Part shown: piece after piece, positions 10,879 to 11,764 of the stretch
Layout: every line of letters starts with the position of its first letter
Numbering within the stretch: the first letter of the stretch is position 1
The notes under the pieces: generated by a model
The model's input: only the letters and a program-made list of their open reading frames with translations
Database searches by the model: none
Told to the model about the DNA's origin: nothing
Made by a program: the position numbers and the translations under genes
From: Phlebiopsis flavidoalba
Lineage: Eukaryota > Basidiomycota > Agaricomycetes > Polyporales > Phanerochaetaceae
Assembly: GCA_035772785.1 (NCBI GenBank)
Contig: JAOCPU010000017.1
Span: forward strand, 310,001 to 374,000
Direction of reading: 5' to 3'
Length of the DNA: 64,000 nucleotides

Positions 10879-11764
10879 ATGCAGCCCATTTTTCATCCTC
10901 ACCCGTACTTTTGCAATCTCTGCCCTCCTCGTTGGTGGTAAGTTGCTCTCCTCACGACGTGTCGACAACGTCTCACAAGACTTTCAGCTGCCCCCCCCAC
11001 CATTCTCGCCGCGCCCCTCTACAACACGCGTCCTTGCCACCTTTCGACTCGCGTCACCGTCCTGCCCGTCTGTGACGGTCTCATCCGTACGCATTCCAAC
11101 TTCCGAATTTTTCCGATTCCCCTAACAATCTCCCTCAATAGGTATGGGGACTCCTCAGCGGCATTTTCCCGAGTTTCACACCATCAACACCCTCCACCAT
11201 GTTCACAAGTGCCAACTCAGTGATTCCGTCGTTGCGGAAGCGAGCGCGCCCCATCATGAGTCTCTGACAGTCGTTGTTATCTCAGAAGAGCACCAAATCT
11301 ACACAGGTTCGCAAAATATTCCTAGCATCTTTGAGCGAAACTCACTCATATCGCCACAGCGCGACGATTCTGACATCGCCGCTCGCGAACCAGAGCCAGA
11401 ACCGATGTGTCTTATGGCAGCCTTCTGCAAACGCGAACCAGAGCCTGAGCCCATCCCTGAGCCAGAGCCGGAACCCGTCGCTGAGCCAGAACCAGAGCCC
11501 GTCGCTGAGCCAGAGCCGGAGCCCATGTGTCTCATGGCGGCATTCTGCAAACGCGAACCAGAACCGGAGCCTGAGCCCATCCCCGAGCCCGAGCCTGAGC
11601 CCATCGCAGAACCCGAGCCCGAGCCGATGTGTCTCATGGCAGCGTTCTGCAAACGCGAACCAGAGCCTGAGCCCGCCCCGGAACCCATTCCTGAGCCTTC
11701 GCCTGAACCCATGTGTCTCGAACCCGCCTTTTGCAAGCGTGAAGCCGAAGCTGCTCAGGCTTGA
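10879..11764 (+). CDS. Secreted repeat-peptide precursor with Kex2 sites and X-Pro/X-Ala spacers (alpha-factor-like architecture)
   Basis: Three exons fit. Exon 1 (10879-10937) starts ATGCAGCC; with one surplus base in the CCC run it encodes a signal peptide ending in FAISALLVG. Intron 1 is 10938-10987 (GTAAGT...CAG), exon 2 is 10988-11086, intron 2 is 11087-11141 (GTACGC...CTAAC...TAG), and exon 3 is 11142-11764. Phases match at both junctions. After a ~110-residue pro-region come four cores: MCLMAAFC at 11405, 11525 and 11627, and MCLEPAFC at 11711, each followed directly by Lys-Arg. The spacers between a KR and the next core are made only of X-Pro or X-Ala dipeptides (EP, IP, AP, SP, VA, IA), 15, 12 and 9 pairs long. 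In yeast alpha-factor, Kex2 cuts after KR and the dipeptidyl aminopeptidase Ste13 strips such dipeptides, which would release free MCLMAAFC (inference). Two cysteines per core could form a disulfide ring. A role as mating or other signal, or as a RiPP core, is unproven; no modifying enzyme gene sits nearby. Confidence 0.8.
11387..11740 (+). repeat. Coding tandem repeat: (EP)n spacer plus [10 protein letters not shown], four units
   Basis: The DNA repeat consists of GAGCCn/GAACCn hexamers followed by a conserved 30-nt core block (11405-11434, 11525-11554, 11627-11656, 11711-11740). Synonymous third-position differences between copies (for example CTT/CTC and GCA/GCG) suggest the peptide, not just the DNA, is maintained. 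Units shrink from 3' spacer length 90 to 72 to 54 nt. Confidence 0.88.

Follow-up and report, generated by a model that had tools for sequence, protein, structure and literature searches.

The window analysed here, a stretch of 64,000 nucleotides from the basidiomycete Phlebiopsis flavidoalba, carries at positions 10879 to 11764 a gene that appears to code for a precursor in which a short two-cysteine peptide is repeated four times. Its features, in window coordinates, are as follows; the two introns are predicted from sequence only.

10879..10937, plus strand: putative exon 1, with an ATG at 10879 and a hydrophobic 18-residue stretch in the next frame (from 10880)
10938..10987, plus strand: putative intron 1, GTAAGT...CAG, 50 bases
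10988..11086, plus strand: putative exon 2, in which the pro-region begins
11087..11141, plus strand: putative intron 2, GTACGC...CTAAC...TAG, 55 bases
11142..11764, plus strand: exon 3, with the remaining pro-region, four repeat units and the stop TGA
11387..11404, plus strand: dipeptide run 1, X-Pro in 3 of 3 pairs, preceded by a single Arg
11405..11428, plus strand: core 1, MCLMAAFC, followed by KR
11435..11524, plus strand: dipeptide run 2, X-Pro or X-Ala in 15 of 15 pairs
11525..11548, plus strand: core 2, MCLMAAFC, followed by KR
11555..11626, plus strand: dipeptide run 3, X-Pro or X-Ala in 12 of 12 pairs
11627..11650, plus strand: core 3, MCLMAAFC, followed by KR
11657..11710, plus strand: dipeptide run 4, X-Pro in 9 of 9 pairs
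11711..11734, plus strand: core 4, MCLEPAFC, followed by KR, then EAEAAQA and the stop

The frame that carries the repeats is open from 11126 to 11764 and ends in TGA. An initial annotation of this DNA had described four cores of eight residues with two cysteines, each ending at Lys-Arg (KR), and this is what we find: KR directly follows the core in all four copies. The same annotation gave one core sequence for all copies, which holds for cores 1 to 3 (MCLMAAFC), but in core 4 EP replaces MA (MCLEPAFC). Likewise the X-Pro/X-Ala run announced ahead of each core is present throughout (3, 15, 12 and 9 pairs, 39 of 39 of them X-Pro or X-Ala), although run 1 begins after a single Arg (DIAAR) and only runs 2 to 4 begin after KR. 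The locus thus displays several attributes of a Kex2-processed repeat protein (KEP) with a STE13 signature: at least three near-identical repeats (here four copies, three of them identical in protein), a dibasic Kex2 site at each repeat, and a run of X-Pro or X-Ala pairs linking the basic site to the core. The precursor terminates in KREAEAAQA, and the C-terminal CaaX box of basidiomycete mating pheromones is absent. For MCLMAAFC the computed m/z is 889.344 in the reduced and 887.328 in the oxidised form, and for MCLEPAFC the corresponding values are 913.362 and 911.346.

Copies 1 to 3 differ from one another at silent sites only, with pairwise counts of silent and non-silent changes of 3/0, 2/0 and 2/0. 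The fewest changes that explain the three copies is four, and the probability that four of four random changes are silent is approximately 0.001 if the silent fraction is taken as approximately 0.18. Between copy 4 and any of the other three, nine bases differ, four of them silent and five non-silent. Opposite the repeat lies a Gly-Ser-rich open frame of 151 codons on the minus strand (11302 to 11754), probably a by-product of the Glu-Pro codons.

The window contains 153 open frames of at least 110 amino acids, of which 30 neighbouring ones were scanned against Pfam. At E ≤ 0.01 the matches were confined to an NmrA-like gene and to MTR4 domains, and consequently no biosynthetic cluster is seen in the scanned part. 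The exon of the NmrA-like NAD(P)-binding protein lies at 12589 to 13110, on the same strand as the precursor and just downstream of it; an exon of an MTR4-type exosome helicase occupies 35089 to 35487 on the minus strand. A further minus-strand frame, 36303 to 36752, looks helicase-like by eye and has no Pfam match.

The start of the gene

Exon 1 had been described as signal-peptide-like once its frame was corrected. A hydrophobic stretch is indeed present; however, it sits in a stop-to-stop frame (10754 to 11125) that contains no Met and is offset by one base from that of the nearest ATG, at 10879. The frame correction is therefore an assumption. Removal of both putative introns, the borders of which are good, would carry the frame of the hydrophobic stretch into exon 3. 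We built start models from the ATGs between 10714 and 11256, allowing up to three GT-AG introns of 45 to 110 bases drawn from 15 candidates, and within these rules the stretch was recovered by none of the 41 ATG-started models that reach the cores. Among the 41 models the mean Kyte-Doolittle value near the N-terminus reached at most 1.1; the out-of-frame stretch scores 2.0, and a relative that is described below, P0122, scores 2.6. The out-of-frame start is either a one-base assembly error, or the mark of a broken copy, or a type of start outside the model rules.

A second frame break of one base occurs elsewhere in the window. At 52648 to 52910 there is a 27-base tandem repeat of approximately ten copies that encodes DEPFCPPxx units, and the reading frame moves by one base on passing from the unit at 52757 to the one at 52783, out of the plus-strand frame 52346 to 52918 and into the plus-strand frame 52678 to 53088. 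The one frame of this region that was scanned, 52421 to 52957 on the minus strand, has no Pfam match. Because of this second break small assembly errors in the window are plausible, which in itself proves nothing.

The misplaced ATG and the failure of all 41 models to restore a hydrophobic start are what would be expected if the locus were a decaying or dead KEP copy, that is, if the family were real and the start broken in this strain, so that the peptide is not secreted. Against this, exon 3 has kept an open frame of 212 codons, and the purely silent differences among copies 1 to 3 are unlike long neutral decay. The break at 52757 to 52783, though it could be real, makes an assembly error a plausible source of the defect at 10879. 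We regard a dead copy as unlikely on balance, and favor a gene for an alpha-pheromone-type precursor.

Relatives of the precursor and spread of the core

A search with the full-length precursor returned 367 matches. The best 120, which were listed, are mostly acidic Glu-Pro low-complexity proteins and provide no evidence of kinship; 14 of these 120 were inspected individually, and the core was looked for in all 122 proteins that the searches yielded (P0001 to P0122). The pattern MCL..AFC occurs in two of them, P0121 and P0122. None of the best 120 of the 367 matches has a fungal name, nor have the matches of the later searches, which gave one and two rows.

P0121 was the single match among 333 candidates when the dipeptide runs of the query were shortened (E = 4.5e-9). 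It contains three MCLSAAFC cores, each identical to the aligned window core in 7 of 8 positions, and 13 of 37 columns of the aligned pro-region are identical. The pro-region alignment pairs the segment QRDDLDIIIREP of P0121 with a 12-residue segment of the window precursor. Directly before the three cores stand 3, 6 and 11 pairs, and all three runs end exactly at Arg, two of them after a single Arg, as in run 1 of the window. The record stops short of the N-terminal signal region, and its third core ends at a K that is the final residue.

A profile of the window precursor and P0121 found two proteins among 511 candidates, P0121 again and P0122. The latter is a protein of 45 amino acids with a signal-like start followed by TPTPDPDP, MCLEAAFC and KR. 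Its E value of 5.5 is not significant. By composition the motif is expected approximately 8e-5 times in the database, a figure to be interpreted with caution since the motif was chosen after the match had been seen. From the motif and the signal-like start, P0122 is likely to be a relative, and on these sequences the core family would read MCL[M/S/E]AAFC, with MCLEPAFC in copy 4 of the window in addition.

The register of the dipeptides was followed by walking backward from each core for as long as every second residue was Pro or Ala. Such a walk gives X-Pro/X-Ala pairs by construction and tests only where it stops; it stopped at Arg in 4 of 4 cases in the window and in 3 of 3 in P0121. For P0122 we count four X-Pro pairs, the walk adding an extra LA inside the signal peptide. 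As for the expectation that homologs keep both KR and the dipeptide register, the relatives have retained the core, a basic site behind it and X-Pro/X-Ala pairs immediately ahead of it; in P0121, however, the register counted onward from the KR that follows core 1 is interrupted (EP-EI-EE-R) and resumes after a single Arg.

These comparisons also bear on whether the Glu-Pro-rich repeats could themselves be the working part of a structural or surface protein, the KR sites being incidental. Exon 3 has no Pfam family above cut-off, and the Glu-Pro runs do show a likeness to repeats of the PARP type (Trypan_PARP, E = 9.4e-8, with 32.6 bits where the cut-off is 100). It is the core, though, that is best conserved between the window and P0121 (7 of 8 positions versus 13 of 37 in the pro-region), while the runs vary in length and shrink to just four X-Pro pairs in P0122. 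A structural protein is accordingly quite improbable.

Within the 36.3 Mb genome a codon pattern for C-L-x-x-A-F-C-K-R has four matches, all at this locus (backward-read control, 0). A codon pattern for K-R-[DE][AP]x3 has three, again all at the locus (backward-read control, 1); this pattern misses runs with non-acidic first pairs, and a lack of matches is not proof of rarity. When exon 3 in shortened form and the pro-region ahead of it were used as queries against the same genome, this locus alone came back, and the core codons had no match in IMG/VR. Five core strings, CLMAAF among them, were absent from the 5.39 million papers searched, and may yet form a row in the supplementary tables of PMC6339444 or PMC7329392, which lie outside that scope.

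Processing and likely role of the peptide

The genome contains candidates for both processing proteases; the domain counts that follow are lower bounds. A Kex2-type enzyme is represented by one P_proprotein match on contig C1, and a Ste13-type protease by a predicted DPPIV_N gene on C30 with two adjoining matches. Approximately 0.5 kb upstream of the latter, on the same strand, is a transmembrane-like stretch, as in Ste13. The proposal of an alpha-factor-style architecture is upheld by these matches together with the core, basic site and X-Pro/X-Ala pairs kept in the relatives. A class II peroxidase exon was also seen in the genome, with lignin peroxidases as its best match among solved chains. 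Together with the several STE3 exons described below it is in keeping with a white-rot agaricomycete, without being diagnostic of species or phylum.

Alpha-type precursors in Basidiomycota are already a published class (PMC6339444, PMC9769878). Basidiomycete KEPs with clear STE13 signatures were reported by Le Marquer 2019 (PMC6339444), who speculated on a hormone or pheromone role, and MSGVAADW, SGVAADW and LSGVAADW were detected in Pleurotus by mass spectrometry (Vogt 2022, PMC9769878). The latter report also describes the release of MSGVAADW/SGVAADW from the STE13-run precursors of Pleurotus KEP 1091723/1439342, a Coprinopsis KEP stripped of its X-Ala/X-Pro pairs when produced in Pichia, and knockouts of six Coprinopsis KEPs that showed no apparent phenotype. 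The initial annotation had presented its alpha-type precursor as a contrast to what basidiomycetes are known to make. The architecture stands, but since both the STE13-signature KEPs of Basidiomycota and the Pleurotus peptides are on record there, the contrast had already been published. We consider the window precursor a further case of the KEP class, of which the core strings themselves were not found in the literature searched.

With the basidiomycete STE13 KEPs (PMC6339444, PMC9769878) it shares dibasic-ended repeats, X-Ala/X-Pro runs and short cores. Compared by eye, the Pleurotus core MSGVAADW and MCLMAAFC agree in their length of 8, in Met1, Ala5 and Ala6, 3 of 8 positions being common; compared by core alone, the Pleurotus peptide ends in Trp and that of the window in Cys, with two cysteines. 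The AADW ending of these Agaricomycete cores is accordingly replaced by AAFC. A KEP of Trichosporon oleaginosus, also a member of the Basidiomycota, has a STE13 signature and a core with two cysteines, QSWGGCGGRGTPCW (PMC6339444); that core, however, is 14 residues long, contains Trp and is ascomycete-pheromone-like, and has only Cys in common with MCLxAAFC. The precursors of ascomycete two-Cys alpha-type pheromones resemble the present one in processing design and in the two core cysteines. They differ in the core itself, as the window cores do not have the Trp-Cys...Cys form and belong to neither ascomycete type (two-Cys with Trp, or PYGxPxG).

What can be read from the sequence directly is the repeat anatomy, its conservation in the relatives and the Kex2-type and Ste13-type gene matches; beyond these we infer splicing, secretion and the following course of processing. 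In an intact member of the family the precursor would enter the secretory pathway, where Kex2 would cleave behind Lys-Arg and likewise behind the lone Arg ahead of core 1. Kex1 would take the KR off the cores, and a Ste13-type dipeptidyl aminopeptidase anchored in the membrane would strip the X-Pro/X-Ala pairs stepwise and halt at Met-Cys, which is expected to be uncuttable. The product would be an octapeptide MCLxAAFC, oxidised in the secretory pathway and perhaps closed by a Cys2-Cys8 disulfide, which we think probable, and it would be secreted either as a hormone-like self-signal or as a molecule aimed at other organisms. We favor this reading, an alpha-pheromone-type KEP that yields a secreted octapeptide by way of Kex2, Kex1 and Ste13 for signalling or biotic interaction and not for mating, at a probability of roughly 0.72.

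A different fate for the cores would be cyclisation by UstYa-type oxidases before release, as in a dikaritin-like RiPP, an option that the initial annotation had left standing. Dikaritins of the ustiloxin type likewise derive from secreted precursors with Kex2-cut repeats, and UstYa-like exons exist in the genome (four matches, three above cut-off, on C18, C50 and C59). None of the four lies on C17, the contig of the window, and the option is weakened for this reason. The window precursor differs from dikaritins in its STE13-type run as well, and its core lacks Tyr, which is usual in dikaritin-like cores. The KEP architecture speaks for such a product, and in the count of 7878 KEPs by Umemura 2020 (PMC7329392) 22% have a DUF3328 (UstYa) gene nearby; toxic cyclic peptide precursors are, however, reported to be without a STE13 signature (PMC6339444). 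We judge a cyclised RiPP very unlikely, and prefer an octapeptide released by the alpha-factor route.

That the product serves as a genuine alpha-type mating pheromone, perceived by a Ste2 receptor, is hardly tenable. The precursor design is the same, and P0001, the best match of the unmasked search, has WCxxxGNPCG cores that we take to be of the alpha-pheromone type. But P0001 has no MCL..AFC core, STE2 had no match in a search of the same genome run without a positive control, the eight exon matches for STE3 are spread over C23, C32 and C69 with none on C17, and the literature gives the a-type as the only kind of mating pheromone in basidiomycetes (PMC6339444, PMC9769878).

The role of the putative secreted octapeptide is probably in signalling or biotic interaction. 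A bolder form of this proposal is conceivable and for now rather doubtful: wood-decay fungi would possess in MCLxAAFC a conserved peptide hormone, closed by a disulfide, that a single-copy gene supplies through the alpha-factor route and that a dedicated non-Ste2 receptor perceives. If true, alpha-factor chemistry would here serve an end other than mating, with a peptide family of its own.

For the alpha-pheromone-like peptides of mushrooms the cited literature gives no function (PMC6339444, PMC9769878). A short core that has the same two-cysteine pattern in three separate sequences, and is confined to one locus here, is easily synthesised and tested, with exact masses already predicted. Within this class MCLxAAFC would stand out as a clear candidate for a conserved signal.
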